Shown one piece after another: positions 36,823 through 64,000 of a DNA stretch of 64,000 bases. Both the position numbers and the translations under genes were made by a program. This DNA is from Pedobacter steynii. Lineage in GTDB: Bacteria; Bacteroidota; Bacteroidia; Sphingobacteriales; Sphingobacteriaceae. Under the pieces are notes generated by a model that saw only the letters and a list, made by a program, of their open reading frames with translations, was not told the origin of the DNA and did no database searches. Numbering within the stretch: position 1 is the first letter of the stretch; the number at the start of each line of letters is the position of its first letter. Location: NCBI RefSeq assembly GCF_001721645.1, contig NZ_CP017141.1:3410001-3474000 (forward strand), read 5' to 3'.

Positions 36823-37150
36823 TGCTTATAAATATACGGGAATTTGAGGAATCAGTTTTTTTATCTACTTGTTTTCGTGTTTTCGTAATTTTTATCTCTT
36901 TTTTAGTTTTTAGTCTGTAATTTTTAGGATATCCTATATTATATCTGGTGTTTTGCTGTGATTTTATCATTTTGTTAGAAAAATTGGTCATTTTGTTTTG
37001 TGTTTTTTATTATTTTGATGATTTTATTGATGATTATGTATTCATTTTGTGATTTTATTTTGTAAAAACTTCATTATAAAAGGAATATTTTCTAGATTTA
37101 TAAAAAATAACCGATGTAAATCAATTATAAACTAGTAAAATCTAATAATT
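36823..37150. other. AT-rich intergenic region upstream of the ammonium transporter
   Basis: About 330 bp, extremely T-rich on the plus strand, with many TTTTG and TTATT runs but no exact TAnnTTTG box and no sigma-54 or NtrC-like site that I can support. No gene was recognised. Confidence 0.5.
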
Positions 37151-42956: not shown

Positions 42957-43260
42957 GATGTAATTTTAAATGGCGCTTTTGAGCATTAATTTGAAGCTTT
43001 TTTGTGTAATTTGCTGATATTTAATGTAATATATTTATGTAAAAAATTTGTTGAAAATTTTATCTGATTTAGTTGAGTAGGTATAAATGAGTAATAAAAT
43101 TCCCAGTTTTTTGTATATTGACATTATTATGAGGAAACTATTGCCTTAGAATGACGAAGGGGTGCTCCTTTCAAGGTGGAACGTGAATTGTAAAAGGCAA
43201 GAAGGCTTATCATAGATAACGCTGAATACCTTTATTTATTACATACCATATCTACCTAAT
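42957..43260 (+). promoter_or_regulatory. Leader region of the giant adhesin gene with a structured element at 43141-43200
   Basis: About 300 bp without a gene. TTGCCTT (43141-43147) can pair with AAGGCAA (43194-43200), enclosing an AAGG/CCTT hairpin (43157-43170). This could be a leader RNA structure just before the 20-kb gene. No exact TAnnTTTG box was found; AT-rich sequence around 43000-43130 presumably holds the promoter. Confidence 0.35.
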
Positions 43261-46200
43261 ATGAGTACACTTCTACCTCTCTCAGCAGATTCTGCTGCAA
43301 TACGCTCGTTTTTATACTTTTTTAGAAAATTTTCCCGGATTGCCGGCGGATTGCTGCCTCATCAATGGAAGTTGTTGAGCTGTTTGCTGTTGTTCGGTGT
43401 TTTCGGAAATGAGGCTGCGGCACAATTTACGATAACGGAAAATTTTAAAGGAAGCTCTACCGGAAATGTGGTAATCGGAGGAGCTGCCAGATTAACCTCA
43501 GGAAATCCGGACCCTGTTGGAGCCGGTTGGCTGAGGCTGACCTCGGATGGTACCAGTCAGTCGGGATATGGATATGTAAATCAATCCTTTCCTTCTTCAT
43601 TAGGAGTCCTTGTTGATTTTGAATATGTTTCCTGGAGAAGTACTAATGTGCCGGGAGCAGATGGTTTTTCTGTGTTCTTATTCGATGCAGCGACACCCAC
43701 TTTTAGCATTGGGCAACCTGGAGGGTCTTTAGGATATGCAAACGGTAATCGTACCGGTACCATGTTGCCGGGACTTGCAGGAGGATATGTAGGATTAGGA
43801 ATTGATGAATTTGGAAACTATTCTTCTACAGTGGATGGAAAGAATGGTGCAGCCAGTTATACCCCCACAGATAACTCGATTGCACTTAGGGGAGAAGCTC
43901 CTACTTATACTTATCTTACCGGAGTATCAACAGCCCCAACAAGTATAGATTATGATGTAATTACCTCAACACGCCCAACACCAACTCAGTTTTATAGACG
44001 GGTGCAGGTAGAAATTCTTCCTGCGGCAGCTCCGAATGTGGGGAAATATACCATTACGGTAAAATGGAAAACCAGTGTGAACGGAACGTTTTCGACCGTT
44101 TTTGGGCCTTATCTTTTAAATAAAGTACCTCCTCCAAATTTAAAACTCGGTTTTGCCGCCTCAACAGGTGGTTTTGTGAATTATCATGAGATCCGTAATG
44201 TGCTGATCACCACACCAGGTGGTGTTCGTACAGATAAAGCAGTGGATAAAAGTACTGCGCTGGTAAATGATCAGCTTACTTATACCGTTAACGCAGTTAA
44301 TTCTACCGCAGTTGCTATTGGCGGACTTAAACTGGCGGATACGATCAGAAATAATAACAATGTTATTCTCCCTTCTTCGGATTTTACTATTGATAATATT
44401 ACCTTCAACAATAACGGAAATGCAGCCAATACAGCGCCAGGTTATCCTAGCGGGGTAGCGGTTGCAGGAGGGACAAACCCGTTTAATGCAACATTAAACC
44501 TCGCGGCAAACAGTACCGGTACATTTATTATAAAGGGAACGATCAAGACTCAACCTGCGGGAGGAATTATTAAAAACTCTGTTGGAGTTGACCCTACGAA
44601 TACGGGAATAACGGACACAGATTTAACAAATAACAATTATACCGTAACAACGAATGTATTTTCACCAAATGTAGATCTTGACATTGTTAAAGAGGTAAAT
44701 AATTCATGCGTGGTTTCAGGTACGGATAATACGTATTCATTAATTGTATCTAATAAGGGGCTTACGGCCACAGGCTCAACATTAGTCACAGTGGTTGATC
44801 AATTACCTCCGGGATTTACCTTTAATGCCACTGGTAGCAGCAATCCGGGATGGGGCAGATTGGTTACCGGGCTGGTTAGCACCGGGCAGATTATTACTTA
44901 TACCAGGACCAGTTCATTGGGGTCTGGCCTTGTTTATCCAACCATTATTCTAGCGACAACTCCTCCTGCCAGTCCGGCTGCAACAAGTTGGGTCAATACT
45001 GCTACTGTCACATTTGGTTTGGCAGAAAGTAACCTTAGCAATAATCAAAGTTCTGCAACCATTTATGCTAAGCCGGTAGCGCCTACAGCGACAAACGTCA
45101 CTTACTGTCAGGGAGCTATTGCAACAGCATTAACTGCCACGGGCACTAATCTGAAATGGTATACTTCGGCTGTAGGAGGAAGTGGAAGCTCAACCGCACC
45201 GATACCTGTTACGACTACTGCAGGTGTGACCACCTACTATGTAAGTCAGAGTAACGGAACCTGCGAAAGTGCGTTGACTCCAATTACGGTAACGATACAA
45301 GCTGCTATTGCAGGAAATAGCATTGCCGCTAACCAAACGATCTGTACCAATACAAATGCAGCCAGTTTAACGGGAAGTTTACCCACTGGAGGCTCGGGAA
45401 CATACGCTTACTTGTGGGAACAAAGCACAAATGGAGGAACCACATGGACAACTGCGACAGGAACCAGTAATGGACAAAATTATAATCCAGGAACCTTAAC
45501 TGCGACAACACAATACCGTCGTACGGTATCGAGTGGATCCTGTTCAAATACAAGTGCTGTAATAACTGTTACCGTACAAGCGACGATTACCGGCAATACC
45601 ATTACAGCGCCTTCACTAGTGTCGATATGTGTAACCGGAGATCCGGGACTAATCACTGGCTCAGCGCCTTCAGGTGGAAGTGGCTCTGCGACTTATCAAT
45701 GGCAAATCAGTACTGACGGGACTACATTTAGCAATATCTCACTGGCAACAGGTATCAATTACGATCCTCCCGGACCAGTGACCGTAGATACCTGGTATCG
45801 TCGTCTGGCGCAATCGGGAGCTTGTACCGTACCTAGTATTAGTAACCTGGTTAAGTTTACTGTATTTCCTGCTTTAACTGCCGGATCAATAGGGGCAAAC
45901 CAGGTTTTTTGTCAGACCGGAACACCTGCCGTGTTGAATGAATTAAGTCCTGCAACTGGTGGTGATGCTATTTATGCCTATCAGTGGGAAAGCAGCACCA
46001 CAAGTACGAGCACTGGATTCAGCCCTATTAGTGGAGCAACACAAAAAACATATACAGCTTCAGCTGCCATCAACCAGACCACCTATTATAGAAGGATAGT
46101 CAGTTCAGTTGGTTCCAGCTGCGGACCGCAAATCAGCAATGTAGTTACTGTAACAGTAAACCCTGTTATTACCGGCAATACCTTAACTCTTGCCGGAACT

Positions 46201-49200
46201 TCAGCATTCTGTCTGAGCGGAGATCCCGGAAATATTACCGGTGCAACTCTTTCAGGTGGAAGTGGTGTTTACAGCTACTCATGGGAACAGAGTATTGATG
46301 GAGGGGCAAACTGGACTCCATTAGCCACGATAACCGCAAATCTTGATCCTACTGTAATCACGACGACTACACAATACCGTAGAATCGTAAATTCAGGAAC
46401 CTGTAGCTCAACAAGCGCTCCGGTCACCGTGACTATTTATACGGCACCAACAGTAGCTGTAGCCGGGCCGGATCAATCGCAATGTAATACGACAGCCTTC
46501 ACTATGGCTGCCAATGTACCAACATCAGGTACTGGAGTCTGGGCAGTGGTTTCAGGATCTGCAGTGATTACGAATACTGCTTTGGCAAATACAGGAGTGA
46601 CTCTTGCTGCCGGCCAGACTGCTACTTTATCCTGGACCATCAGTAATGGAAATTGTGCAGTGAGTACCGATCAGGTTACCATTACCAATTTTGCTTCTCC
46701 TACCACTGCAAATGCAGGAACCAACAGCACTCAATATAATTCCGGAACATTTACATTGAATGGTAATTTACCGGTTGCGGGAACGGGTGTGTGGTCGGTG
46801 AAACCTGGAAGTACGGCTACAATTACTGATCCGGCTAACAGAAATACTACCGTTACTATTGCTCCAAATACATCCGCTACACTGATCTGGACCATCTCCA
46901 ATGGTTTATGTGCAGCCTCCTCTGCAGAAGTAACAGTAACTTATACCAGATCGGCAGACCTGAAAGTTGTCAAATCTATTGTTACTCCCGGGCCTTTCAC
47001 CGCTGGTCAGCCAATCGTTTATCGTATTATCGCAAGTAATGATGGGCCAAGTGATGCCCAGGGCATACAAATCATTGATGCCGTGCCGGCTGAAATGGTG
47101 GTTTCCACCATCAACGCAAATACCGCCGGTACTGCTGCAATTATCCAAAATGCCTCCGCAGGGAACAGTATTAATGTAACTGCTGATATTAACGCAGGTA
47201 CAGGGAATACGGTGACTATTGACGTAAACGGAACAATTGCTGCAAACTATTCAGGAAACCTGACGAATACGGTTACCGTGACCTCTCCTAATGTTCCTGA
47301 CCCTGATGGCGCTACTTCTACAGTAACCAATCCGGTGGATCGGAAACCTGTATTAGTGATCGACAAACAAGGGCCTTCCAATGTAATTGCAGGAGATGCA
47401 ATTGCTTATAAAATTACGATAAAGAATACCAGTACAAGTGATGCGATTGGAACAGCCATTGCGGATGCTATTCCATCTCAGATTATTAATACGACCTGGT
47501 CAGTGAGCAAGACCGGAACGGCGACTTTTACCGGTCCTGCCTCAAACACAGGAAATAACATCAGTTTTAATGGTACGATTCCAGCTGGTACTGCGAATAC
47601 CATTGTCATTGATGTAACCGGTACCGTATCACCTGCTGCAACCGGAAGCTTTAATAATACTGCAACTGCAACGCCGGCAGAATCGGTTCCTCCGGTTAAT
47701 TCAAATACCGTAACTACAAACATTTCCAGCAAATCGGGATTGGTGATGTTGAAAAATGGTCCGTCAACCGCTCAGGCAGGAACTTCGATTTCCTATACTT
47801 TAAAAATCACGAATAACGGACTGAGTGATGCCATCAATGCCTTGATTACAGATGCGGTTCCAGCAGAAATAAAAACAGTAAGCTGGACTTCTTCTGTGCA
47901 GGGATCAGCTACGCTGATTGGTTCAGGCAGCGGAACAGGAAACTCAGTTATTGTGAATGGTAATATTCCAACCGGTACAGCAAACGCCATTCTGGTAACC
48001 ATCAATGGAACCGTTGATCCCTCATTTAGTGGTAACATCAGCAATACCGGAACCGCAGATCCTTCGGAAACAGGTAGTCCTTCGTCGAATTCTACGGTAA
48101 CTACACAGGTAAACCGCACTCCGGTACTTACCATTACCAAAGTGGGGCCTGCTACATTAACCGCCGGACAAAACATCAGTTATACGATAGAGGTGACGAA
48201 TTTAAGTGTTGCCGATGCAAAAGCATTAGCGATTACCGATGCAGTACCAGCAGAAATCAGTAATGTAAACTGGACCACCGGTACAACTGGTTCAGCCAGC
48301 CTGATTGGTGCGGGCACGGGAACAGGAAATAACATTAGCATTACCGGAAACCTGAGTGCTGGTGCTGGAAATAAAATCACGATAACGGTAACAGGAACGG
48401 TAGCGGCTTCATTTAATGGCTCCTTGTCTAATACCGCCACAGCAACCCCTGCAGAACCAGGAACAGCACCTAAGTCCGCTACCAGCACCACGCAGGTAGA
48501 TAGAAAGCCGACCTTAAGTATTGTGAAAACCGGACCTGCAACTGTTATTTCTGGCGATCAGATTACCTACACGGTGACTATTGCCAATACCGGTACTTCA
48601 AATGCAGAAAATGTTGCCATTACAGACGTGGTTCCTGCCAGCATAAAAAATGTAAGCTGGAGCTCAACTGTTTCAGGGGCAGCATTGGTTAATGCCGGGG
48701 CAATAGGATCGGGTAATAACCTAATCGTTTCAGCTGATATTCCTGCAGGCACGGCAAATAAAGTTACACTAACCATCAGAGGAACGGTTGATGCCGCTTT
48801 TGATGGGAATATTGTCAATATAGCAACTGCTACGCCATCAGAAAGCGGAACTATTGCGGTGACTTCTTCAACAACGGCTGCGGCAAGCCGTAAACCAGAT
48901 CTGAGCATTAGTAAGACAGGACCGGCAACATTGGTTTCTGGACAGAATATCAGTTATACGATTACCGTAAATAACTTCAGTAGTTCTGATGCGAAAGCCT
49001 TAGTCGTTGCAGATCAGGTACCGGCATCCATTACTAATGTAACCTGGTCAGCAGCAACATCAGGTGCTGCGGTGATTAATGGCACCGCCAACGGTACAGG
49101 AAATGGAATCAATATCAATGCAGACCTTGCGGCGGGTAGTGGTAATGTCATCACCATTACTGTAAACGGAACAGTATCTGCTGCGTTTAGCGGTAGCATT

Positions 49201-52200
49201 ACCAATACCGTAACCGCAACACCTGCCGAGCCCGGAACTCAGGTTAAAACGGCAAGCAGCACTGCGATAATAAATAAAATACCAACATTAAGCATTCAAA
49301 AAACAGGGCCTGCAACAATTTCCGCAGGTCAACAGATTAACTATACCTTAACAATTAGCAATACCGGAACAGCAAATGCTGATAATGCGAGTATTACAGA
49401 TGTTATTCCGGCAGGGATTTCAAATATAAGCTGGCAGGCCGTTGCCGATCCGGCCGGAACTGCAACAATTGTAGGAACCTCGTCAGGTACTGGTAATAAC
49501 ATCAGTGTGAATGCCAATATTCCGGCAGGTGCCGCTAACATGGTGAAAGTGAATATTCAGGGAACAGTAAATTCTTCGGCAACAGGCACTATTTCCAATA
49601 CGGGTACGGTGACACCTGCTGAAGCAGGTACGATACCTAAAAGTTCTACAGTGACCACTACTTTACAATCGACCCCAGGTATCACGTTGTCTAAATCCGG
49701 GCCTTCAGAAATAGCTGCAGGACAGACTATCACCTATACTTTGATTGCAGGAAACAGTGGGCCTTCTGATGCGACAAATTTAAGCATCAGGGATCTTGTA
49801 CCTGCTCCATTAACCAATGTGAGCTGGACTGCAGTTTCAGAAGGCACGGCCGCGGTGACTTCAGGAGGAACAGGAACAAACAATAGTAATGTTCTTGTTC
49901 AGGGTAATATTGCTGCAGGTACAGGAAACCGTATTGTCATTACGATCAGTGGTCAGGTTCCTTCATCTACCACGGCGACATCATTCGCCAATAGCGCAAC
50001 AGCAACACCGTCTGAGCCAGGTGTACCTCCGGTAAATTCTAATACCATTACCACAATTATTATCAAAAAGGTGACCATCTCGGCTGTTAAGTCAGCAACA
50101 GCATCACTTTTCGCAGGAGAGAACATTACTTATACATTAGAAGTAAAAAATAGCGGACCAAGTGATGCGCTAAATCTGTTAGTCTCTGATCAGCTTCCTG
50201 CAGGTATCAGCAATATCAGCTGGACAAGCAGCGCCTCTGGTTCAGCCAGTGTGCTTTCTGGGGGAACTGGAACGGGTAGCGACTTAAGTTTAAGAGCAAA
50301 TATCCCTGCAGGTAATGCCAATGTGATCCTGATTACGGTAACGGGCAAAGTAGATCCTGCTTTTGGCGGAACGCAATTGGTGAATACTTTTAGTGTAACT
50401 CCTTCGGAATCCGGAAATCCACCAGTATCTTCTAACACGACTACTACGTTAATCAGTAAAAAAGCAGATATTCAGATTCAGAAAACAGGCCCTGCAACAT
50501 TGATTGCTGGTCGTCCGATAGCTTATACCATAACCGTAAATAATGCGGGACCATCGGATGCAGGCAATGTGAACATCTTGGATATAGTTCCTGTAGGAGT
50601 AACCGGCGTTAACTGGACTGCCACTGCTCAGAACGGGGCCGTCATCAATGGCACAGCCACAGGAGCGACTAATAATATTAATGTTTTAGCAACCATCCCT
50701 TCCGGATCTGGTACGGTGATGATCAATGTAACAGGAATTATTGCTTCGGACTTTACAGGAACATCATTAATTAATACGGCTACTGCTACACCGGAGGCAG
50801 GTATCACAGACCCTACACCCGCAACAAGTACCGTAACTACGGCCATTACCCGAGTTGCCAACGTGAGGATCATCAAATCTGGTCCTGCTAATATCATTGC
50901 AGGTGCTCCGATTACTTATAACCTTCGAATCGTGAATGATGGTCCAAGCGATGCACCAGGAGTTGTCATAAATGATCAGATTCCTGCAGGTATCATTACT
51001 GCAAGCTGGACCGCAACCGGCATTAACGGGGCAACAGTAAGCAGCACAAATGGAAATGGAAATGTGAATTTTACTGCTGACCTACCTGTTGGTACGGCTG
51101 AAGTAAATGTCGTGATTACCGCAAGAGTTAATCCTTCTGTACCACAAAATACAAACATTATCAATACTGCTACGGCCAACTTCCCTCCCGGAAGTCCCGT
51201 TACAGATTCGGACCCGACTTCCAATACCAGTTCTGTGCCAACCAGAGTAGGCGTGCAGACGGATATCCTGGTTTCGAAAAGCGGACCGGCTACAATTGAT
51301 ATCGGAGATAGAATAGATTATACCATAGAAGTTAAAAATGGAGGAATCAGTAACATTACTAACGCTGCGATTACAGATATTATTCCGAATTCAGTAGCCG
51401 TAACCAGCTGGACGATAACTCCGTCAAATGGGGCAACAATTGAAGGTGGTATAACTCCAATCACCGGGACCGGTAATTCTATTGTGACTTATGGGGATAT
51501 CCCGGCGGGCCCTAACAGCCTTATTCTCATCAGAATTCAGGGAACGGTAAAAACAACTGCTGATGCATCATTTACAAATGAGGTGGTGGTGACTGCAAAC
51601 GGAGAAGAAAGAAGTGCCGTGGTAACTGCGGTAAATCAATCAACAGATATTTATATAGAGAAAAGTGGTCCGCAGACTATTACAGCAGGATCAGCAATTA
51701 CATATCAGCTGAAAGTCGGTAATGATGGACCGATAGATATTAACGGGTTGTCTATTGCCGATAATATCCCTGCTGACATCAAGAATGTAAGCTGGACAAG
51801 TACCGTCGTCGGTACAGCAACAATTACCGGATCAACGGCAGGAACAGGTAATGCCATCGCAACTACTGCAGACATCGCTGCTGGTACTGGTAATTACATT
51901 CTTATCGATGTTCAGGGGACAGTCGATGCGGCAACTGCAGGTAAAAACATCGCCAATACTGCTAATGTAACGCTACCTGCCGGGAAAAGCGATTTCAATA
52001 TGGCAAATAACAGCAGTTCGGTACAAACAGCGATCATCTCTAAATCAGGTCTTTCAGTTCGTAAGATGGGACCTGCTGATGCGGTATCGGGAGCTGAAAT
52101 TACGTACACCATAATTGTGTCAAATGCAGGCCCAAGTAATGCAGTACAAACGGTTATTACTGACGCGGTTCCTGCAAACATTAGTAACGTGACCTGGACA

Positions 52201-55200: not shown

Positions 55201-58200
55201 CAGGAGATTACTTATACACTAAATATCACCAATACAGGAACAGCGAATGCTGATAATGCCTCTGTGACGGATCAGATTCCAGTGAATATCAGTAATGTAA
55301 GCTGGAATGCCGTGGCTCAGGGAGCAGCAACTGTTTTGAGTGGTGCCAGCGGCAATAGTAATAACCTTTCTGTGAATGTGAATGTACCTGCCGGTGCAGC
55401 CAATTCCATTCTAATTACTGTGAAAGGAACAGTTAGCCCTTCTGCAACAGCAGATCTGGTGAACAAGGCTACGGTAACTCCTTCAGAACAAAATACTACA
55501 CCTGCAAGCTCTACCGTAACAACGACCTTAAAAGCAGTGCCTTCAGTAAGTCTGGTTAAAAGCGGCCCTTCGCAGATTTCTGCAGGACAAATAGTAACCT
55601 ACACACTGATTGCCGGTAACAACGGCCCTTCAGATGCACGCAATCTTGCGATTGCAGATGATGTGCCTGCCTTGTTAACAAATGTGACCTGGTCTGTTAC
55701 TACTGAGGGAGATGTGAACGTCATCAGTGGTGCTAACGGAACAGGAAACAGTGTCCGGATTAATGCGGATATCAATGCAGGTACAGCCAATCGTATATTG
55801 ATTACCATTACCGGAAAAGTTCCCGGATCAGCTCCTGCGGGAGTACTGACTAATACGGCCAAAGCAACTCCTTCAGAACCTGGTATTCCCGAAGTTCCTT
55901 CAAATACCATTACGACTACAGTAGATCATAAATTGAACATCAGGGCAGTGAAGTCTGCCGTTACTTCAATTGCTGCGGGTGAAGTGATTACTTATAATTT
56001 GCAGGTGTTTAATGATGGGCCTGCTGATGCCGCTAATCTGGCCATTAACGATGCAATTCCTGCGGGTATTACCGGAGTAAGCTGGACCACCAGCTCATCT
56101 GGTGCTGCGAGTATTGTAGCTAATGGAACGGGAACGGGTACTACGGTGAACCCATTAGTGAATATTCCTGCTGGTGCAGGGAATTCGATTACCGTATTGG
56201 TAACCGGAACCGTTGATCCTGCCTACATCGGAACAACATTGAAAAATAGCTTTACTGCCAACCCGTCTGAACCGGGTAACCCTCCGGTGCCTTCCGAAGA
56301 GGTAACTACAAACGTAGTGAAAACGGCAGATATCCGTATTCAGAAAACAGGTCCGTCAATGGTTGTTGTAGGTTCTGCGATTAGTTATACGATAAACGTA
56401 ATTAATGCGGGGCCAAGTAACGCCGGGATTGTAAATATTGTAGATAACCTCCCAGCCGGTCTTAGTAACGTTAGCTGGACGGCAACGGGCCAGAATGGAG
56501 CAACCATTACCGGCGCCGCTACCGGAACGGGTAATATCAATTTAAATGCGGCTATCCCATCCGGAAATGCAGCAATACAGATCATTGTGAATGGAACAGT
56601 AGATCCGTCTTTTGCAGGTAATGAGTTGATTAATACAGCTACAGCCACACCAGGCGGAGGAGTAACTGACCCGACGCCTGCAACGAGTACGGTAACTACT
56701 ACACTTAGCAGAATTGCTAATGTTAGAATTACTAAGTCAGGGCCTGCCAATATTGCGGTAGGAGAAATGATGACTTATAATTTGCGCATCGTCAACGATG
56801 GACCTAGTAATGCAACAGGGGTACTGATCAAAGATCTAATCCCTGCAAATCTGGAAGCAGGTGCAATATGGACCGCAACAGTAACAGGCGGTGCAACCAC
56901 AAGTGTGGCAGGTGGAACTGGAGATATTGATATTACCGGTGATATTCCGGCAGGATCCGGAGTGATTAGTATTGATATCAACGCCAAAGTAAAGGCAGAT
57001 AATGTTGACAAAACAACTTTTGCCAATACTGCGACTGCTTTCTTCCCTCCTGGAAGTCCTATAGTGGATCCGGAACCGGCTTCAAATACCAGCACCGTTC
57101 AAACGGTAATCAACAATGATCCGGTACTTAAAGTGTCGAAAAGCGGTCCTGCAACGGTAAATATTGGTGATCCGATCAATTATACGATCGTTATCCGAAA
57201 CGGAGGTGCCGGTAATATTACAAACGCTGATATCTCCGATCCGGTACCTGCTGATGTTAAAGTGACAAGCTGGACGGTTACCCAGGGAGGTGGAGCAACG
57301 ATTACAGGAGCAACAGGTGGATCAACCAATTCGATTGTTACTAAAGCGGATATACCTGCAGACGGTAACCCGTTAACTGCAATTACAATCAATGTTTCTG
57401 GTATTGTGGAAACGACTGCTAATGCGATATTTACCAATACCGTTACAGTAACTGCAAATGGCGAAAGAACAAGTTCGGTAGTGACTGCTGTAAATCAATC
57501 TACTGATATTAAAGTAGAAAAAACAGGACCTCAGTCAGTTACTTCAGGATCTGCGATTGCATACACGATTAAAGTTAGCAATCAGGGGCCTAGAGAGGTG
57601 ACCGGATTGACCATAACGGATAATGTACCTGCGGTAGTGGGGCAGATCAACTGGACCGCTCAGGCATTTGGAACAGCAAGCCTGACAGGTGCGGCCAGCG
57701 GAACTTTAAATGCGATCCAAACTACTGCAGATGTTCCTGTAGGTGCAGGCAACTACATTCTGATTAATGTAAACGGACTGGTTGATCCGGGTGCTGCATC
57801 AGGAAACATCAGTAATGTAGCCAGTATAATAATGCCATCTACGATTTCTGATTTCAACCTGGCCAACAATAGAAGTGAGGTAAATACTGCAATCAGTTCG
57901 GTATCGGGATTAACGATCAGCAAATCAGGCCCTCAGAATGGGGTGTCGGGTTCTGCAATTACCTACATGATTAAAGTGAAGAATACTGGTCCAGGTAATG
58001 CAAGTCTGGCTCTGATCAGAGATGTCGTTCCGGCAGGAATAAAAGATGTAAGCTGGACGGCAACCAAGACTGGCAATGCAGTGATCAATTCAGGAATTAG
58101 TGGAACAGGAAATACAGTGACTGTTTCTGCGGATATTCCTGCAGGCACTGCCAATGATGTCAATATTACCATTAATGGAACAATTGATGCCGGTTTCAGC

Positions 58201-61200
58201 GGACAACTAATTAATAATGCAACAATTACGCCATCAGAACCAGGTAACCCACCAGTGATTTCAACTGATGTTACTACAGAGGTAATTAATAAATCTGGCG
58301 TCAGAATTGTTAAATCAGGGCCTACCAGTATCGAAGCTGGTAAGACCATTAGTTATACATTGGAACTCAGCAATGCGGGGCCAGGTAATGCAATGAATGT
58401 GGATATTAACGATGCTGTTCCTGCTACGTTGACAAGCGTAAACTGGACTGCAACAGCGACTTCTGGGGCGGTAATCAGATCTGGTGCAAGCGGAACAGGA
58501 AATACTGTTGCACTTAAAGCGGACCTTCCTGCAGGAAGCGGAATCGTAACTGTTAACATTACTGGGCTGGTTCCTGCAAATGCCGCATCTGGAAACATTA
58601 GCAATACTGCAATTGCGACTCCATCAGAACCCGGCAATCCCGCAGTACCTTCAAATGTAATCACGACGGCAATTGTCAATAATGCGAGTCTGAGTCTGGT
58701 AAAAACCGGTCCGGCTGCTCTTCATTCAGGTGAAAATATTGCTTATACGCTGACAGTTCGTAATGCAGGGCCGTCTGATGCCGTCGGTGTAGCACTTAAA
58801 GATATAGTGGCTGCGCAGATTACCGGAGTTTCATGGACTACAACACTTGCAGGTGGAGCAACGATTAGCAGTGGAGCAACAGGTGCGGTAAATAATGTGG
58901 AACTGACTGCAAATGTGCCGGCAAATGGCAGTATTTTGGTGAACATCAGCGGTAAGGTAAATCCAACTTTTGCCGGATCTATTGTGAATACCGCAGTCCT
59001 TACACCTGGAGATCCAGCTAAACCTGCGATTAACTCGGTGGTAACAACAACAGTAACTAACCTGTCCAACCTGAGCATTACTAAAACTGGTCCGGCCACA
59101 GTGGCTGCCGGTCAGGTAATGAAATATCAGATTAAAGTGAGCAACTCTGGTCCAGGTACCGCGCAGGACGCGATTATCAGTGATATTATTCCTGCTCAAT
59201 TAACAGGAGTGACCTGGACTACTACTGCCAGTGGAGCGGCAACAATTGCTAGCGGACAAACGGGATCAGGAAATACGTTAAGTGTAACTGCAACTCTTCC
59301 TACCGGAGTGAGTGATGGCATTACCATTGACATTACTGGTACAGTTGATCCTGCCTTTAGCGGTAAACTGGTAAATACGGCAACGGTGACACCAAAAGAA
59401 CCAGGTAATCCACCAGTGGTGACCCCGCCGGTAGAAACTGAGAGTACGTTGAAACCAAACATTACACTTGCCAAAACAGGCCCTGTAACGATAACCGCAG
59501 GAGCACCGATTACTTATATCATCACAGCTGGAAACACTGGATTGAGTAATGCGAAAGGATTGGTGATTACCGATAATGTACCATCACAAATTAAAAATGT
59601 GAGCTGGACAACCAGTGTTAACGGAGTAGCTGCAGTAACCGCAGGTGGAACCGGCACAGGAAATGCAGTTTCGGTAACAGGAGATATCGCAGCTGGTGCA
59701 GGTAATCAGGTCGTGATTACCATTACGGGTACGGTAGATCCTGCCTTTAGTGGTAAACTGGTAAATACGGCAACAGGAACGCCATCAGAACCAGGTAACC
59801 CACCAGTGGTAACTCCACCGGTAGAAACAACTACCGATCAGAAACCAGGAATTACGATAGCCAAAACAGGTCCGGCAACCATCAGTGCAGGAGCACCTAT
59901 TACTTATATCATCACAGCTGGAAACACTGGATTGAGTAATGCGAAAGCATTGGTGATTACCGATAATGTACCATCACAAATTAAAAACGTGAGCTGGACA
60001 ACCAGTGTTAACGGAGTAGCTGCGGTAACCGCAGGTGGAACCGGCACAGGAAATGCAGTTTCGGTAACAGGAGATATCGCAGCTGGTGCAGGTAATCAGG
60101 TCGTGATTACCATTACGGGTACGGTAGATCCTGCCTTCAGTGGTAAACTGGTAAATACGGCAACAGGAACGCCATCAGAACCAGGTAATCCACCAGTGGT
60201 AACTCCACCGGTAGAAACAACTACGGATCAGAAACCAGGAATTACGATAGCTAAAACAGGTCCGGCAACCATCAGTGCAGGAGCACCTATTACTTATGTC
60301 ATCACAGCTGGAAACACTGGATTGAGTAATGCGAAAGCATTGGTGATTACCGATAATGTACCATCACAAATTAAAAACGTGAGCTGGACAACCAGTGTTA
60401 ACGGAGTAGCTGCGGTAACCGCAGGTGGAACCGGCACAGGAAATGCAGTTTCGGTAACAGGAGATATCGCAGCTGGTGCAGGTAATCAGGTGGTGATTAC
60501 CATTACGGGTACAGTAGATCCTGCCTTCAGTGGTAAACTGGTGAATACCGCAACAGGAACGCCATCAGAACCAGGTAATCCACCAGTGGTAACTCCACCG
60601 GTAGAAACAACTACGGATCAGAAACCAGGAATTACGATAGCTAAAACAGGTCCGGCAACCATCAGTGCAGGAGCACCTATTACTTATGTCATCACAGCTG
60701 GAAACACTGGATTGAGTAATGCGAAAGCATTGGTGATTACCGATAATGTACCATCACAAATTAAAAACGTGAGCTGGACAACCAGTGTTAACGGAGTAGC
60801 TGCGGTAACCGCAGGTGGAACCGGCACAGGAAATGCAGTTTCGGTAACAGGAGATATCGCAGCTGGTGCAGGTAATCAGGTCGTGATTACCATTACGGGT
60901 ACGGTAGATCCTGCCTTCAGTGGTAAACTGGTAAATACCGCAACAGGAACGCCATCAGAACCAGGTAATCCACCAGTGGTAACTCCACCGGTAGAAACAA
61001 CTACGGATCAGAAACCAAACATTACACTTGCCAAAACAGGTCCGGCAACCATCAGTGCAGGAGCACCTATTACTTATGTCATCACAGCTGGAAACACTGG
61101 ATTGAGTAATGCGAAAGCATTGGTGATTACCGATAATGTACCATTACAAATTAAAAACGTGAGCTGGACAACCAGTGTTAACGGAGCCGCTGCGGTAACC

Positions 61201-63222
61201 GCAGATGGAACCGGCACAGGAAATGCAGTTTCGGTAACAGGAGATATCCCAGCTGGCGCAGGTAATCAGGTCGTGATTACCATTACGGGTACGGTAGATC
61301 CTGCCTTTAGTGGTAAACTGGTAAATACGGCAACAGGAACGCCATCAGAACCAGGTAACCCACCAGTGGTAACTCCACCGGTAGAAACAACTACCGATCA
61401 GAAACCAGGAATTACGATAGCCAAAACAGGTCCGGCAACCATCAGTGCAGGAGCACCTATTACTTATATCATCACAGCTGGAAACACTGGATTGAGTAAT
61501 GCGAAAGCATTGGTGATTACCGATAATGTACCATCACAAATTAAAAACGTGAGCTGGACAACCAGTGTTAACGGAGTAGCTGCGGTAACCGCAGGTGGAA
61601 CCGGCACAGGAAATGCAGTTTCGGTAACAGGAGATATCGCAGCTGGTGCAGGTAATCAGGTCGTGATTACCATTACGGGTACGGTAGATCCTGCCTTCAG
61701 TGGTAAACTGGTAAATACGGCAACAGGAACGCCATCAGAACCAGGTAATCCACCAGTGGTAACTCCACCGGTAGAAACAACTACGGATCAGAAACCAGGA
61801 ATTACGATAGCTAAAACAGGTCCGGCAACCATCAGTGCAGGAGCACCTATTACTTATGTCATCACAGCTGGAAACACTGGATTGAGTAATGCGAAAGCAT
61901 TGGTGATTACCGATAATGTACCATCACAAATTAAAAACGTGAGCTGGACAACCAGTGTTAACGGAGTAGCTGCGGTAACCGCAGGTGGAACCGGCACAGG
62001 AAATGCAGTTTCGGTAACAGGAGATATCGCAGCTGGTGCAGGTAATCAGGTCGTGATTACCATTACGGGTACGGTAGATCCTGCCTTCAGTGGTAAACTG
62101 GTAAATACCGCAACAGGAACGCCATCAGAACCAGGTAATCCACCAGTGGTAACTCCACCGGTAGAAACAACTACGGATCAGAAACCAAACATTACACTTG
62201 CCAAAACAGGTCCGGCAACCATCAGTGCAGGAGCACCTATTACTTATGTCATCACAGCTGGAAACACTGGATTGAGTAATGCGAAAGCTCTGGTGATTAC
62301 CGATAATGTACCATCACAAATTAAAAACGTGAGCTGGACAACCCGTGTTAACGGAGTAGCTGCAGTAACCGCAGGTGGAACCGGTACAGGAAATGCAGTT
62401 TCGGTAACAGGAGATATCGCAACTGGTGCAGGTAATCAGGTGGTGATTACCATTACGGGTACGGTAGATCCTGCCTTCAGTGGTAAACTGGTAAATACCG
62501 CAACAGGAACGCCATCAGAGCCAGGTAACCCACCAGTGGTAACTCCACCGGTAGAAACAGATGTAAGTAAAACTCCTGCTTTAACGATCAGTAAAACCGG
62601 GCCAGCTACATTGAAATCTGGAGACTTGATTACTTATGTTGTGGAGGTTAGTAATTCTTCATTAAGTAATGCGGATAATTTAACCATTACTGATTTGGTG
62701 AGCTCAGATATCCTCAATGTGAAATGGACAACGGAAGTTCAGGGAGCTGCAAAAATTCTTTCCGGGGCAACAGGAAGTAGCAGTAACGTCAATGTGGCTG
62801 CTGATATCCCATCTGGTAATGGAAATAAAGTGATCGTTACGATTACCGGTACGATTTCTAAATCATTTACCGGAAGGATTGAAAATACAGCGAGGGCACT
62901 TTCAAATACAGGAACACCAGAGGTGAACAGTAATGTGGTATCCACGGTGGTAGAAAATGCAGATTTTATCATCCCTAATATTATTACGCCAAATGGGGAT
63001 GGCAATAATGATACTTTCAAAATTAAAGGACTGGAAAACTATCCGGGAACGAAGGTTACTATCTTCAACAGATGGGGTAATGAAGTTTACCGATCTGATA
63101 ATTATACCAATGATTGGGACGGTAGTCAGCTGAATGAAGGTACTTACTATTACCTGATCCTCAGAAAAGAGAAATCAGGCAGTACGACAACGTTTAAAGG
63201 ATGGATGTTTATTAAAAGGTAA
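43261..63222 (+). CDS. Giant T9SS-secreted surface protein with tandem DUF11 modules (6,653 aa)
   Basis: A very large surface protein exported by Sec and then T9SS. The N-terminal export signal is long (about 55 residues, core WKLLSCLLLFGVFGNEAAAQ). An L-type-lectin-like domain follows at about 57-320 (PGADGFSVFLFDA, GLAGGYVGLGIDEFGN), then two divergent DUF11-like domains (about 322-603), a CHU_C-associated Ig-like domain (603-680, VTYCQGAIATALTATGTNLK), four Ig/PKD-like modules (680-1060) and two TISNGNCAVS-type modules (1061-1229). Then come 41 tandem DUF11-type modules of about 130 residues (1230-6565), each with a pattern like KTGPATISAG...ITY, D.VP and GTV...F.G. Residues about 6569-6653 are a gliding-motility/CHU_C sorting domain (IITPNGDGNNDTFKI, IFNRWGNEVY, GTYYYLI). 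A PorP/SprF gene follows 22 bp downstream, as with F. johnsoniae SprB. A filamentous adhesin role is inferred. Confidence 0.93.
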   Translation: MSTLLPLSADSAAIRSFLYFFRKFSRIAGGLLPHQWKLLSCLLLFGVFGNEAAAQFTITENFKGSSTGNVVIGGAARLTSGNPDPVGAGWLRLTSDGTSQSGYGYVNQSFPSSLGVLVDFEYVSWRSTNVPGADGFSVFLFDAATPTFSIGQPGGSLGYANGNRTGTMLPGLAGGYVGLGIDEFGNYSSTVDGKNGAASYTPTDNSIALRGEAPTYTYLTGVSTAPTSIDYDVITSTRPTPTQFYRRVQVEILPAAAPNVGKYTITVKWKTSVNGTFSTVFGPYLLNKVPPPNLKLGFAASTGGFVNYHEIRNVLITTPGGVRTDKAVDKSTALVNDQLTYTVNAVNSTAVAIGGLKLADTIRNNNNVILPSSDFTIDNITFNNNGNAANTAPGYPSGVAVAGGTNPFNATLNLAANSTGTFIIKGTIKTQPAGGIIKNSVGVDPTNTGITDTDLTNNNYTVTTNVFSPNVDLDIVKEVNNSCVVSGTDNTYSLIVSNKGLTATGSTLVTVVDQLPPGFTFNATGSSNPGWGRLVTGLVSTGQIITYTRTSSLGSGLVYPTIILATTPPASPAATSWVNTATVTFGLAESNLSNNQSSATIYAKPVAPTATNVTYCQGAIATALTATGTNLKWYTSAVGGSGSSTAPIPVTTTAGVTTYYVSQSNGTCESALTPITVTIQAAIAGNSIAANQTICTNTNAASLTGSLPTGGSGTYAYLWEQSTNGGTTWTTATGTSNGQNYNPGTLTATTQYRRTVSSGSCSNTSAVITVTVQATITGNTITAPSLVSICVTGDPGLITGSAPSGGSGSATYQWQISTDGTTFSNISLATGINYDPPGPVTVDTWYRRLAQSGACTVPSISNLVKFTVFPALTAGSIGANQVFCQTGTPAVLNELSPATGGDAIYAYQWESSTTSTSTGFSPISGATQKTYTASAAINQTTYYRRIVSSVGSSCGPQISNVVTVTVNPVITGNTLTLAGTSAFCLSGDPGNITGATLSGGSGVYSYSWEQSIDGGANWTPLATITANLDPTVITTTTQYRRIVNSGTCSSTSAPVTVTIYTAPTVAVAGPDQSQCNTTAFTMAANVPTSGTGVWAVVSGSAVITNTALANTGVTLAAGQTATLSWTISNGNCAVSTDQVTITNFASPTTANAGTNSTQYNSGTFTLNGNLPVAGTGVWSVKPGSTATITDPANRNTTVTIAPNTSATLIWTISNGLCAASSAEVTVTYTRSADLKVVKSIVTPGPFTAGQPIVYRIIASNDGPSDAQGIQIIDAVPAEMVVSTINANTAGTAAIIQNASAGNSINVTADINAGTGNTVTIDVNGTIAANYSGNLTNTVTVTSPNVPDPDGATSTVTNPVDRKPVLVIDKQGPSNVIAGDAIAYKITIKNTSTSDAIGTAIADAIPSQIINTTWSVSKTGTATFTGPASNTGNNISFNGTIPAGTANTIVIDVTGTVSPAATGSFNNTATATPAESVPPVNSNTVTTNISSKSGLVMLKNGPSTAQAGTSISYTLKITNNGLSDAINALITDAVPAEIKTVSWTSSVQGSATLIGSGSGTGNSVIVNGNIPTGTANAILVTINGTVDPSFSGNISNTGTADPSETGSPSSNSTVTTQVNRTPVLTITKVGPATLTAGQNISYTIEVTNLSVADAKALAITDAVPAEISNVNWTTGTTGSASLIGAGTGTGNNISITGNLSAGAGNKITITVTGTVAASFNGSLSNTATATPAEPGTAPKSATSTTQVDRKPTLSIVKTGPATVISGDQITYTVTIANTGTSNAENVAITDVVPASIKNVSWSSTVSGAALVNAGAIGSGNNLIVSADIPAGTANKVTLTIRGTVDAAFDGNIVNIATATPSESGTIAVTSSTTAAASRKPDLSISKTGPATLVSGQNISYTITVNNFSSSDAKALVVADQVPASITNVTWSAATSGAAVINGTANGTGNGININADLAAGSGNVITITVNGTVSAAFSGSITNTVTATPAEPGTQVKTASSTAIINKIPTLSIQKTGPATISAGQQINYTLTISNTGTANADNASITDVIPAGISNISWQAVADPAGTATIVGTSSGTGNNISVNANIPAGAANMVKVNIQGTVNSSATGTISNTGTVTPAEAGTIPKSSTVTTTLQSTPGITLSKSGPSEIAAGQTITYTLIAGNSGPSDATNLSIRDLVPAPLTNVSWTAVSEGTAAVTSGGTGTNNSNVLVQGNIAAGTGNRIVITISGQVPSSTTATSFANSATATPSEPGVPPVNSNTITTIIIKKVTISAVKSATASLFAGENITYTLEVKNSGPSDALNLLVSDQLPAGISNISWTSSASGSASVLSGGTGTGSDLSLRANIPAGNANVILITVTGKVDPAFGGTQLVNTFSVTPSESGNPPVSSNTTTTLISKKADIQIQKTGPATLIAGRPIAYTITVNNAGPSDAGNVNILDIVPVGVTGVNWTATAQNGAVINGTATGATNNINVLATIPSGSGTVMINVTGIIASDFTGTSLINTATATPEAGITDPTPATSTVTTAITRVANVRIIKSGPANIIAGAPITYNLRIVNDGPSDAPGVVINDQIPAGIITASWTATGINGATVSSTNGNGNVNFTADLPVGTAEVNVVITARVNPSVPQNTNIINTATANFPPGSPVTDSDPTSNTSSVPTRVGVQTDILVSKSGPATIDIGDRIDYTIEVKNGGISNITNAAITDIIPNSVAVTSWTITPSNGATIEGGITPITGTGNSIVTYGDIPAGPNSLILIRIQGTVKTTADASFTNEVVVTANGEERSAVVTAVNQSTDIYIEKSGPQTITAGSAITYQLKVGNDGPIDINGLSIADNIPADIKNVSWTSTVVGTATITGSTAGTGNAIATTADIAAGTGNYILIDVQGTVDAATAGKNIANTANVTLPAGKSDFNMANNSSSVQTAIISKSGLSVRKMGPADAVSGAEITYTIIVSNAGPSNAVQTVITDAVPANISNVTWTSAQSGTANITAGGTGTNSLVRLTADIPAGSGNEVTITIKGKIDPSFTGSLVNNAVATPAEAGNPPVTSENVTTTVTNKSGFSIVKSGPSTVDAGGTVQYTVEVTNAGPSNALAAVITDAVPAGLTNVRWSTAVTPGAIVTANGTGTGNAVSVTADLLAGSGKVVLTITGDVAANSPVGSIQNSALVAPSESGNPPVTSNQVTTAIVKNVSLSLTKSAPATLNAGEEITYTLAISNAGPSNATAARLIDAVPSAIKVVSWTSTATGGAVISNGATGAGNNVDLTADVPVNGTILVNVKGTVDPLFAGTLTNTAVLTPSEAGELPIDAEAVTIVKKLTNLLISKSGPSTAIAGQVITYQIKVSNSGPSTALNASVTDAIPAELEEVSWTTVLTGGSVIVEGATGTGNNLNVKANIPVGQQHEITINVTGKVSASFGGTISNIATVTPGDSGNPPVVTPPVETVVVQRPVIVLSKTGPATGVAGGEITYIIEAGNTGLSNATNLVITDAVPADIKNVSWSAVVAGNSVINGVNQGTGNAISLNGNIPTGSGNKITITVKGTIDPAFAGTLSNTATATPAEPGNPVVNTPAVETEVSQSPVIVVNKTGPATATAGGAISYVIEVSNTGLSNAKNLAVTDNLDPAITGVSWTATASGNSTINGPATGVGNVGLNANIPAGSGNKISITINGTINPAFGGKVTNTATATPQEPGNPPVISPPVETNIEQKPVVVVTKTGQPTATAGAEITYTIEVVNTGLSNAAATAIVDDVPAELINVSWTAVQSGAATIISGASGTGNQVRVSGDLPAGSAGNKITITIKGTVNPGFSGKINNVATASVPGTNVPNVVTPPVETEVDAKPGIVLTKDGPSAAIAGSQITYTITAGNTGLSNATNLAITDGVPSLLSNVSWTSQATGTATVTSGASGTGNVMALNGDIPAGAGNTIVITVKGTIDPSFNGNLTNKAIATPSEPGAVPVEANSTAVVSKTPVLAIAKNGPASISAGQEITYTLNITNTGTANADNASVTDQIPVNISNVSWNAVAQGAATVLSGASGNSNNLSVNVNVPAGAANSILITVKGTVSPSATADLVNKATVTPSEQNTTPASSTVTTTLKAVPSVSLVKSGPSQISAGQIVTYTLIAGNNGPSDARNLAIADDVPALLTNVTWSVTTEGDVNVISGANGTGNSVRINADINAGTANRILITITGKVPGSAPAGVLTNTAKATPSEPGIPEVPSNTITTTVDHKLNIRAVKSAVTSIAAGEVITYNLQVFNDGPADAANLAINDAIPAGITGVSWTTSSSGAASIVANGTGTGTTVNPLVNIPAGAGNSITVLVTGTVDPAYIGTTLKNSFTANPSEPGNPPVPSEEVTTNVVKTADIRIQKTGPSMVVVGSAISYTINVINAGPSNAGIVNIVDNLPAGLSNVSWTATGQNGATITGAATGTGNINLNAAIPSGNAAIQIIVNGTVDPSFAGNELINTATATPGGGVTDPTPATSTVTTTLSRIANVRITKSGPANIAVGEMMTYNLRIVNDGPSNATGVLIKDLIPANLEAGAIWTATVTGGATTSVAGGTGDIDITGDIPAGSGVISIDINAKVKADNVDKTTFANTATAFFPPGSPIVDPEPASNTSTVQTVINNDPVLKVSKSGPATVNIGDPINYTIVIRNGGAGNITNADISDPVPADVKVTSWTVTQGGGATITGATGGSTNSIVTKADIPADGNPLTAITINVSGIVETTANAIFTNTVTVTANGERTSSVVTAVNQSTDIKVEKTGPQSVTSGSAIAYTIKVSNQGPREVTGLTITDNVPAVVGQINWTAQAFGTASLTGAASGTLNAIQTTADVPVGAGNYILINVNGLVDPGAASGNISNVASIIMPSTISDFNLANNRSEVNTAISSVSGLTISKSGPQNGVSGSAITYMIKVKNTGPGNASLALIRDVVPAGIKDVSWTATKTGNAVINSGISGTGNTVTVSADIPAGTANDVNITINGTIDAGFSGQLINNATITPSEPGNPPVISTDVTTEVINKSGVRIVKSGPTSIEAGKTISYTLELSNAGPGNAMNVDINDAVPATLTSVNWTATATSGAVIRSGASGTGNTVALKADLPAGSGIVTVNITGLVPANAASGNISNTAIATPSEPGNPAVPSNVITTAIVNNASLSLVKTGPAALHSGENIAYTLTVRNAGPSDAVGVALKDIVAAQITGVSWTTTLAGGATISSGATGAVNNVELTANVPANGSILVNISGKVNPTFAGSIVNTAVLTPGDPAKPAINSVVTTTVTNLSNLSITKTGPATVAAGQVMKYQIKVSNSGPGTAQDAIISDIIPAQLTGVTWTTTASGAATIASGQTGSGNTLSVTATLPTGVSDGITIDITGTVDPAFSGKLVNTATVTPKEPGNPPVVTPPVETESTLKPNITLAKTGPVTITAGAPITYIITAGNTGLSNAKGLVITDNVPSQIKNVSWTTSVNGVAAVTAGGTGTGNAVSVTGDIAAGAGNQVVITITGTVDPAFSGKLVNTATGTPSEPGNPPVVTPPVETTTDQKPGITIAKTGPATISAGAPITYIITAGNTGLSNAKALVITDNVPSQIKNVSWTTSVNGVAAVTAGGTGTGNAVSVTGDIAAGAGNQVVITITGTVDPAFSGKLVNTATGTPSEPGNPPVVTPPVETTTDQKPGITIAKTGPATISAGAPITYVITAGNTGLSNAKALVITDNVPSQIKNVSWTTSVNGVAAVTAGGTGTGNAVSVTGDIAAGAGNQVVITITGTVDPAFSGKLVNTATGTPSEPGNPPVVTPPVETTTDQKPGITIAKTGPATISAGAPITYVITAGNTGLSNAKALVITDNVPSQIKNVSWTTSVNGVAAVTAGGTGTGNAVSVTGDIAAGAGNQVVITITGTVDPAFSGKLVNTATGTPSEPGNPPVVTPPVETTTDQKPNITLAKTGPATISAGAPITYVITAGNTGLSNAKALVITDNVPLQIKNVSWTTSVNGAAAVTADGTGTGNAVSVTGDIPAGAGNQVVITITGTVDPAFSGKLVNTATGTPSEPGNPPVVTPPVETTTDQKPGITIAKTGPATISAGAPITYIITAGNTGLSNAKALVITDNVPSQIKNVSWTTSVNGVAAVTAGGTGTGNAVSVTGDIAAGAGNQVVITITGTVDPAFSGKLVNTATGTPSEPGNPPVVTPPVETTTDQKPGITIAKTGPATISAGAPITYVITAGNTGLSNAKALVITDNVPSQIKNVSWTTSVNGVAAVTAGGTGTGNAVSVTGDIAAGAGNQVVITITGTVDPAFSGKLVNTATGTPSEPGNPPVVTPPVETTTDQKPNITLAKTGPATISAGAPITYVITAGNTGLSNAKALVITDNVPSQIKNVSWTTRVNGVAAVTAGGTGTGNAVSVTGDIATGAGNQVVITITGTVDPAFSGKLVNTATGTPSEPGNPPVVTPPVETDVSKTPALTISKTGPATLKSGDLITYVVEVSNSSLSNADNLTITDLVSSDILNVKWTTEVQGAAKILSGATGSSSNVNVAADIPSGNGNKVIVTITGTISKSFTGRIENTARALSNTGTPEVNSNVVSTVVENADFIIPNIITPNGDGNNDTFKIKGLENYPGTKVTIFNRWGNEVYRSDNYTNDWDGSQLNEGTYYYLILRKEKSGSTTTFKGWMFIKR
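49282..59454 (+). repeat. Higher-order duplication inside the giant gene (5,871-bp super-repeat)
   Basis: Modules starting at 49282 and at 55153 (offset exactly 5,871 bp, 1,957 codons) match one-to-one in order for 11 modules. Examples: TANADNAS at both first modules; ITYTLIAGN at both second; QIQKTGPATL / RIQKTGPSMV at the fourth; ITYNLRIVNDGPSDA / MTYNLRIVNDGPSNA at the fifth; NITNA at the sixth; TDIYIEKSGPQTI / TDIKVEKTGPQSV at the seventh; YQIKVSNSGPSTA / YQIKVSNSGPGTA at the eleventh. After module 11 both blocks continue with TGLSNA-type modules (four in block 1, eight in block 2). The copies have diverged, so the duplication is old. Confidence 0.85.
59455..62574 (+). repeat. Eight near-identical 390-bp tandem repeats in the giant gene
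   Basis: Exactly 8 x 390 bp (130 codons each; residues 5399-6438), units starting at 59455, 59845, 60235, 60625, 61015, 61405, 61795 and 62185. Most units differ at only a few bases. Units 1, 5 and 8 begin PNITLAKTGP; the others begin PGITIAKTGP. The end of unit 1 and the end of unit 5 share rare variants (CCTTTAG, CTACCGATC), and units 2 and 6 share ITY-I-ITAG, showing multi-unit duplication by unequal recombination. Confidence 0.95.
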
Positions 63223-63244
63223 AACAGATTAAGACACGCTACAC

Positions 63245-64000
63245 ATGAAAGATTTAAAGAAATATAGTTTATTATCCATGCTCATTTTAAGTTTGACCAG
63301 TGGATACGCACAGCAAACGATCCAGTTCAGTCAGTATGTTTTTAATGGTCTTGCCGTTAATCCAGCCTACGCCGGTTATAAAGAAGACTGGACGGCCAAC
63401 TTCAGTTTTCGCTCACAATGGGTGGGAATTGAAGGGGCTCCACGTACCGCCACCGCCTCCTTTGATGGGGTAACTGACCAGCAGGGAAAGAAAATGGGAT
63501 TGGGTTTTATTGCCGCTACTGATCGTTTGGGACCTCAGAATACCTCCGCTTTTTATGCCAATTATGCCTACCGTTTGCAGCTGGATGCAGAAGATACCAA
63601 AAGACTAAGTTTTGGTATCGGTGCGGGAGTTACCCAGTACAACCTGGATGGCGCCAAATTTATCTCCACCGATCCTGGAGATGGGGTCATTCCGATAGGA
63701 AATGAAAGTAAATTACGACCGGATGTTCGTTTTGGGGTTTATTTCTACACACCTAAATTCTATATCGGCGCTTCGGTGATGGACCTGTTATCCGGAATGA
63801 GAAAAGATGAGATCAGTACGGAAGGAGATTATAAAGTGATTCGTCAGGTTCGTCACATTTATTTAACCGGCGGGATGATGATTCCTTTATCCGAATCCCT
63901 TGATCTAAAACCTACCTTTATGCTGAAGGAAGATTTTAAAGGACCTACAAATCTGGATCTGAATGCTTATCTGCTGATCAGCAAGGTACTTTGGTTAGGT
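63245..64000 (+). CDS. PorP/SprF-family T9SS outer-membrane protein, 3' partial
   Basis: Starts at MKDLKKYSLLSMLILSLTSG with cleavage near YAQQ. The mature protein opens with TIQFSQYVFNGLAVNPAYAG, the hallmark of PorP/SprF proteins, then FSFRSQWVGIEGAPRTATAS and beta-barrel strands. About 252 of an expected 300 or so residues are inside the window; the gene runs off the end. In F. johnsoniae, SprF is encoded directly after the giant adhesin SprB and is needed for SprB to reach the surface. PorP/SprF proteins with type B CHU_C cargo are co-encoded widely in Bacteroidota. The 22-bp gap from the giant gene supports the same cargo-partner relation here. Confidence 0.93.
   Translation, partial: MKDLKKYSLLSMLILSLTSGYAQQTIQFSQYVFNGLAVNPAYAGYKEDWTANFSFRSQWVGIEGAPRTATASFDGVTDQQGKKMGLGFIAATDRLGPQNTSAFYANYAYRLQLDAEDTKRLSFGIGAGVTQYNLDGAKFISTDPGDGVIPIGNESKLRPDVRFGVYFYTPKFYIGASVMDLLSGMRKDEISTEGDYKVIRQVRHIYLTGGMMIPLSESLDLKPTFMLKEDFKGPTNLDLNAYLLISKVLWLG

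Follow-up and report, generated by a model that had tools for sequence, protein, structure and literature searches.

Giant type B adhesins are numerous in the Bacteroidota, and they pose the question of which are mobile and which are static. The question arises for a locus of a soil bacterium, Pedobacter, in the 64,000-nucleotide stretch of DNA analysed here (the window, positions 3,410,001–3,474,000 of a 6.58-Mb genome in one contig), whose relatives at the adhesin locus are Pedobacter. A preliminary description of this DNA had called the locus SprB/SprF-like and proposed a role in adhesion or gliding. Analysis of the locus retains the giant type B substrate of the type IX secretion system (T9SS) and its PorP/SprF partner, but not the gliding label, because the carrier lacks cysteine and is accompanied by a PorE-like gene. 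We consider it quite probable that the adhesin is a T9SS-exported, covalently stiffened lectin fibre, anchored in the cell wall and used for attachment or cell–cell adhesion rather than gliding. Such an anchored fibre is of a known kind and ordinary in the class, while its size and its complete series of isopeptide triads are unusual.

The adhesin is encoded on the plus strand at 43261–63222 by an open reading frame of 6,653 aa with no internal stop, in agreement with the earlier view of a single uninterrupted 20-kb gene. From the N-terminus, the protein consists of an extended signal region, a lectin head, an Ig-like region, 41 DUF11/CLIPPER modules and a CHU_C signal. The signal region (43261–43422, plus strand, about 54 aa) ends in ...LFGVFGNEAAAQ and shows, as read by eye, a hydrophobic stretch ending AAA-Q behind an unusually long n-region. 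The type B C-terminal sorting domain (62971–63219, plus strand, residues 6571–6653) matches TIGR04131 with 55.1 bits (cut-off 35) and CHU_C PF13585 with 1.4e-26, so the CHU_C tail noticed before is confirmed by both profiles. The preliminary description had made its reading depend on a T9SS core elsewhere in the genome. A search of the genome for chosen genes found this core, with SprA (1988+600 bits) and GldL (227 bits) both over their cut-offs and gldKLMN in a row. By its C-terminal domain and the T9SS core of the genome, the adhesin is classed as a T9SS type B substrate.

The head of the adhesin (residues ~54–325; 43420–44235, plus strand) was identified by profile, alignment and predicted structure. 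A first Pfam scan had suggested that there is no lectin, which was overturned by a scan of the head only and by fold comparison. The head matches the L-type lectin family PF18483 with E=3.7e-6 and 27.4 bits, which is below the Pfam curated cut-off of 78.3. Its AlphaFold2 model (pLDDT 82), built together with 24 Pedobacter relatives, resembles legume lectins with a Z of 22.7, 213 aligned residues and an rmsd of 2.6, and Foldseek gives E ~5e-12 against legume lectins. The lectin-like head of the preliminary description is thus borne out, and in its predicted structure the head is an L-type lectin by fold. Asp134-Gly135, Gly154, Asp182, Asn186 and His309 are invariant among the 25 Pedobacter heads, and conservation is complete or almost complete in the ADG loop, in the GG..LG loop and at the Asp and Asn of the metal/sugar loop; motifs, not superposition, served to assign the metal and sugar residues. 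Sugar binding by the modelled head is likely because of the lectin fold and the conservation of these loop residues. Legume and ERGIC-53 L-type lectins (for example FRIL, 9VBY, and peanut lectin, 2PEL) share the fold at Z ~22 and retain the Asn of the metal/sugar loop together with the ADG and GG..LG loops, but are only 16–20% identical in sequence to the Pedobacter head. A search of PDB sequences with the head and with the carrier found nothing useful. The head is present in 54 of the 145 Pedobacter genomes searched. In the literature searched, we found no description of a T9SS adhesin that combines DUF11 domains with a lectin.

Between head and stalk lies a linker of about 900 residues (residues 326–1233; 44236–46959, plus strand), which travels with the lectin head. 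The Ig-like modules described earlier are present in it as several Ig-like domains, seen by eye, but two DUF11-like domains that precede them and the array had been missed; one of these is confirmed by PF01345 and the other was recognized by eye.

The stalk (residues 1234–6566; 46960–62958, plus strand) matches PF01345 with E=6e-197 and TIGR01451 with E=6e-205 over the largest piece of sequence. Counting by a shared anchor residue and by profile search gave 41 modules each time, of 127–135 aa in length, so the number reported previously is exact. A model of a tandem DUF11 pair has a pLDDT of 97. The best PDB profile match of the stalk is 9IFR (E=0.011), an isopeptide-bonded DUF11 crystal, with Lys, Asp and Asn in register. 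In this crystal, reported in 2025, Lys and Asn of DUF11 are joined by an isopeptide bond and an Asp acts as the catalyst; the domain was renamed CLIPPER (PMC12617251). The Lys-Asp-Asn triad is absent from some DUF11 domains (PMC12617251) but is present in 41/41 modules of this stalk and in 374/374 modules across ten sequences at the locus. Identity between stalk modules is only about 41%, yet the triad is invariant. We therefore assign the stalk modules to the DUF11/CLIPPER domains with a complete isopeptide triad, in which the bond itself would be expected to form. The CLIPPER fibrillar adhesins (PMC12617251) share with the Pedobacter adhesin the tandem DUF11 stalk, the triad and, among co-occurring domains in the survey of these proteins, CHU_C; in them the bond is known from the crystal structure, whereas in the Pedobacter stalk it is deduced, here for 41 modules all of which carry the triad. 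Presence of the triad in every one of these domains makes the stalk suitable for single-molecule mechanics.

Comparison of the modules reveals two layers of duplication. The best partners of modules 7–17 (49282–53595, plus strand) are modules 22–32 (55153–59454, plus strand), in the same order, at an offset of 15 modules and with 53–61% identity, and we read this pairing as an old duplication of an 11-module block. Modules 33–40 (59455–62574, plus strand) are eight near-identical copies of 390 bp, 93–100% identical at the protein level. Other Pedobacter contain colinear counterparts of modules 2–32, 40 and 41. The repeat 33–40 corresponds to a single module in both P. steynii and PLR and to four in G127; by these alignments it represents a recent, lineage-specific eightfold expansion of one module.

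The other end of the protein has changed as well. P. steynii, KBW06 and G127 are nearest to the window genome (helicase ~96%, sorting domain 94%, carrier 94–95%), and the lectin head, the linker and module 1 are absent from their loci. The P. steynii adhesin carries a CshA_NR2+GEVED head instead, and the KBW06 and G127 proteins begin with the same sequence. More distant Pedobacter species retain the lectin head at ~60%. Judged from these alignments, the tip is exchangeable, because close relatives share the stalk and the anchor with another head. Homology of P. steynii, KBW06 and G127 extends 77–84 bp into the coding start of the window gene, in the form of a 44-codon frame. This frame (MST..PLSA.SA.R...; loci L133, L135 and L131) is located ~144 bp upstream of the ATG of the swapped-head adhesin. 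Its differences are spread over the three codon positions as 8/10/11, 5/9/6 and 10/9/7, unlike those of the real gene (24/20/89). A leader peptide is disfavoured by this lack of codon-position bias, and the frame is probably a relic of the replaced head. The simplest reading of these sequences is a head replacement in the lineage of P. steynii, KBW06 and G127, which left the old start behind. The locus shows how such a fibre evolves: the tip is exchanged, blocks of the stalk are duplicated and one membrane-proximal module is multiplied, while the anchor stays constant.

The PorP/SprF-like outer-membrane carrier begins 22 bp after the adhesin stop (63245–64000, plus strand, cut by the window edge), as the preliminary description had noted, and matches PF11751 with 6.9e-58 and TIGR03519 with 203 bits. 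It extends ~240 bp past the window edge to a full length of ~331 aa and ends in ...KRARVLSPRYF. The full-length carrier contains no cysteine at all, and hence no Cys-X-Cys in its C-terminal tail. Directly downstream of it, outside the window, lies a PorE-like gene of 667 aa (L019:256-2259). The earlier outline of the unit was right about adhesin and carrier, but this third gene also belongs to it. Its product contains TPR, PD40, CarboxypepD-reg and OmpA domains (PF00691, 1.9e-17), the four-domain layout described for PorE (PMC9143113). The best solved relative is 6TOP, the peptidoglycan-binding C-terminal domain of P. gingivalis PorE (E=2e-23). The Asp, Asn and Arg by which PorE contacts peptidoglycan (PMC7192894) are kept, with Asn 8 residues after Asp and Arg 7 after Asn as judged by eye.

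What is known of related systems bears directly on whether such a unit moves. SprF of F. johnsoniae is coupled to the gliding track by a disulfide through a Cys-X-Cys in its C-terminal tail, and loss of either Cys abolishes gliding, while short track contacts are still seen with SprF devoid of cysteines (PMC12635249). The mobile adhesins SprB, Fjoh_4750 and Fjoh_1123 have no PorE-like gene alongside (PMC12618676), and type B adhesins whose genes are accompanied by one have been proposed to be static (PMC12618676; also PMC9143113). Among the latter, Fjoh_3952 of F. johnsoniae has been reported to be static on the cell surface, and Fjoh_3952/3951/3950 encode a type B adhesin, a PorP/SprF-like shuttle and a PorE-like protein in the same order as in Pedobacter (PMC12618676). 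This likeness is one of gene order and description, and the DUF11 stalk and the legume-lectin head are features of the Pedobacter protein. By analogy, the Pedobacter locus is arranged like the static Fjoh_3952/3951/3950 unit and not like SprB. In P. gingivalis, the type B protein PG1035 is bound to PorP, which in turn is bound to the peptidoglycan-binding PorE (PMC9143113). This PorE has the same four-domain layout as the Pedobacter homologue; however, PG1035 is small (~50 kDa, PMC9143113), and in Pedobacter all three genes form one locus. SprB/SprF (PMC12635249) resembles the Pedobacter pair in that the gene of a giant type B adhesin is followed immediately by that of the carrier, but SprF forms its CxC disulfide with GldK and has no PorE neighbour, in contrast to the Pedobacter locus with its cysteine-free carrier, PorE, other repeats and lectin tip. 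In view of the cysteine-free carrier and the adjacent PorE, we reject SprB/SprF as a label and predict that the adhesin is anchored statically.

Taken together, family knowledge and gene order suggest how the fibre would be built. Sec would deliver the adhesin to the periplasm, and in the outer membrane the dedicated PorP/SprF carrier would accept its type B C-terminal domain. The 41 triad-bearing DUF11 domains would form a stiff, protease-resistant stalk, probably of the order of 200 nm, which would hold the tip with its predicted legume-lectin fold far from the cell for glycan binding. The earlier idea of a long stalk with a distal lectin tip is supported in this respect by the domain order and by the predicted fold of the head. 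On the periplasmic side, the ...SPRYF tail of the carrier may be held by the PorE homologue, as the linkage of their genes suggests, and the OmpA domain of the latter, with its conserved residues, would grip peptidoglycan and thereby fix the fibre to the wall. A role in adhesion fits.

A gliding adhesin in the SprB/SprF sense would instead have its carrier coupled to the moving GldJKN track, so that the lectin fibre is dragged along the cell. The type B domain, the adjacent PorP/SprF gene and the giant size are what such an adhesin would show, and GldK in this genome has the conserved KGC cysteine. A GldJ homologue is also present (529-aa frame, 334+67 bits, below the model cut-off of 458), so that track machinery may exist, which is a caveat to the static reading. 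However, the carrier offers neither of the two cysteines required in SprF, a PorE gene accompanies it in contrast to the known mobile adhesins, and Pfam reports DUF11-type families but no SprB-type repeat, as the preliminary description had already observed. Four other carriers of the strain, which have cysteine tails, would be better candidates. Gliding by this adhesin is therefore unlikely, and we regard this explanation as improbable. A serious possibility, albeit the less likely outcome, is that the fibre is static but its tip binds the polysaccharide of the same or sibling cells, in biofilms or aggregates, and not glycans of plants, fungi or algae. Static anchoring agrees with this, and so does the exchange of the tip among close relatives that keep stalk and anchor, although the latter would accompany any change of target, whether self or foreign. 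An artefact of assembly or annotation, by which the array was inflated or the gene is decayed, appears highly improbable. The eight near-identical 390-bp copies could have been miscounted by an assembler, but no stop interrupts the frame in this single contig or at the corresponding locus of further species, where 34–42 modules were detected, and the triad is kept everywhere.

The genome as a whole contains ten type B domains, many of them in frames of great length. It has seven PorP/SprF genes, and all but one of these lie directly behind a type B gene. Further type B domains end open frames of ~2,200–4,700 aa (G000:C1 6478417, 4721211, 5446269, 4875884 and 1822604), so the strain carries a set of giant surface proteins. 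Four of the seven carriers have a single Cys near the C-terminus, namely L024 (ICPRVF), L026 (TRCYVF), L025 (FFCPRL) and L030 (TCPQKNW), located at G000:C1 4876163, 133189, 1822895 and 5682816, and three of the four are behind type B proteins. Judged by their tails, track coupling of adhesins in this strain would more plausibly involve these carriers. At L025:2843-19884, a 4,673-aa type B protein, a Cys-tail carrier and a PorE-like gene occur together; this is the single exception that joins a Cys tail with PorE.

The relation between carrier tail and PorE was analysed in a discovery set of 169 distinct PorP/SprF carriers. They came from Pedobacter, Mucilaginibacter, Chitinophaga and various families of the class Bacteroidia, and each had 900 bp or more of downstream sequence. 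The rule reads PR[YFWLV][FLYW] at the C-terminus (last letter optional) with no Cys among the last nine residues. PorE is downstream of 86/88 carriers that match it and of 3/81 others. Among 60 carriers fetched after the rule had been fixed, the counts are 25/30 and 4/30 (Fisher p=7e-8). Over all 229 carriers, PorE adjoins 111 of the 118 with PR[YF]F-type tails (leaving seven without PorE next door) and 7 of the 111 with other tails; it adjoins only 1 of the 53 carriers that have a Cys in the last nine residues. In PorE-linked carriers, the last five positions are S/T in 92%, P in 93%, R in 96%, Y/F in 94% and F in 94%, while the linker before the motif is poorly conserved. The sample was chosen by similarity to the window carrier and to one family model, and transitions in it are few. 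The carrier tree requires 12 state changes for the tail and 14 for PorE; in nine supported independent pairs, PorE changes with the tail in 4.8 on average and never oppositely (sign test p ~0.06). In three Pedobacter orthologues (L080, L082 and L083, from G029, G032 and G120), PorE is cleanly missing between the carrier and the next gene. One of these retains SPRYF and the adhesin; the other two end in NPKYF and HAKFF and have lost the adhesin, with the carrier frame still open.

Tail and PorE are strongly associated. Part of this is due to shared ancestry, and a physical contact between carrier and PorE is presumed. It is possible that the pentapeptide [ST]-P-R-[YF]-F is a docking tag for PorE and acts as a swappable address, where PR[YF]F would direct type B adhesins to a fixed wall anchor, and Cys tails (CxC in gliding SprF, one Cys in other carriers) would direct them to the moving track through its GldK-type lipoproteins. 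We put this forward tentatively, as a proposal nearly as likely to be right as wrong. Alternatively, SPR[YF]F could be a signal for barrel assembly or stability in one carrier clade, with the link to PorE due to shared operon ancestry only. Outer-membrane proteins often end in Phe, 53% of the PorE-less carriers likewise end in F, and the independent transitions are few, all of which would suit such a signal. However, the motif comes only after the presumed last strand (seen by eye as GSHELSLSISF) and a variable basic linker, and PorE-less carriers of the same genomes lack it. The similar numbers of state changes, the supported pairs that never run opposite and the decay of the tail in the two orthologues that lost PorE also speak against the barrel signal, which we consider doubtful. 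The docking tag would make the tail code a new, simple sequence rule for carrier fate, and in the literature searched we found no description of the SPR[YF]F carrier tail. Should the tail be decisive, five residues would suffice to tell the fate of each adhesin.

Carriers with CPSF-like tails (L168, L187, L199, L200, L205, L213, L215, L223, L227, L235, L236, L302, L303, L307, L309–L311 and L313) adjoin a gene for a GldK-like lipoprotein of the FGE fold and have no type B gene upstream. Judging by this arrangement, it is as if disulfide partners were encoded together.

Upstream of the adhesin, a gene for a DbpA-type RNA helicase (41293–42597, plus strand) is the constant 5′ neighbour in Pedobacter and serves as a synteny marker outside the system. 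The 5′ leader at 43173–43260 (GGTGGAACGTGAATTGTAA ... GAATACCTTTATTTATTA) is kept across Pedobacter species despite otherwise diverged upstream DNA. It has no Rfam match, and an Rfam scan of 36000–64000 yielded a single chance match to a snoRNA family below the cut-off, so the conserved leader is not explained by a known RNA element. A 275-aa open frame on the minus strand within the stalk (51912–52739) was regarded as a mechanical ORF. Upstream of an ammonium transporter gene lie two short, AT-rich tandem repeats of 31 bp, at 36858–36926 and 36990–37064.
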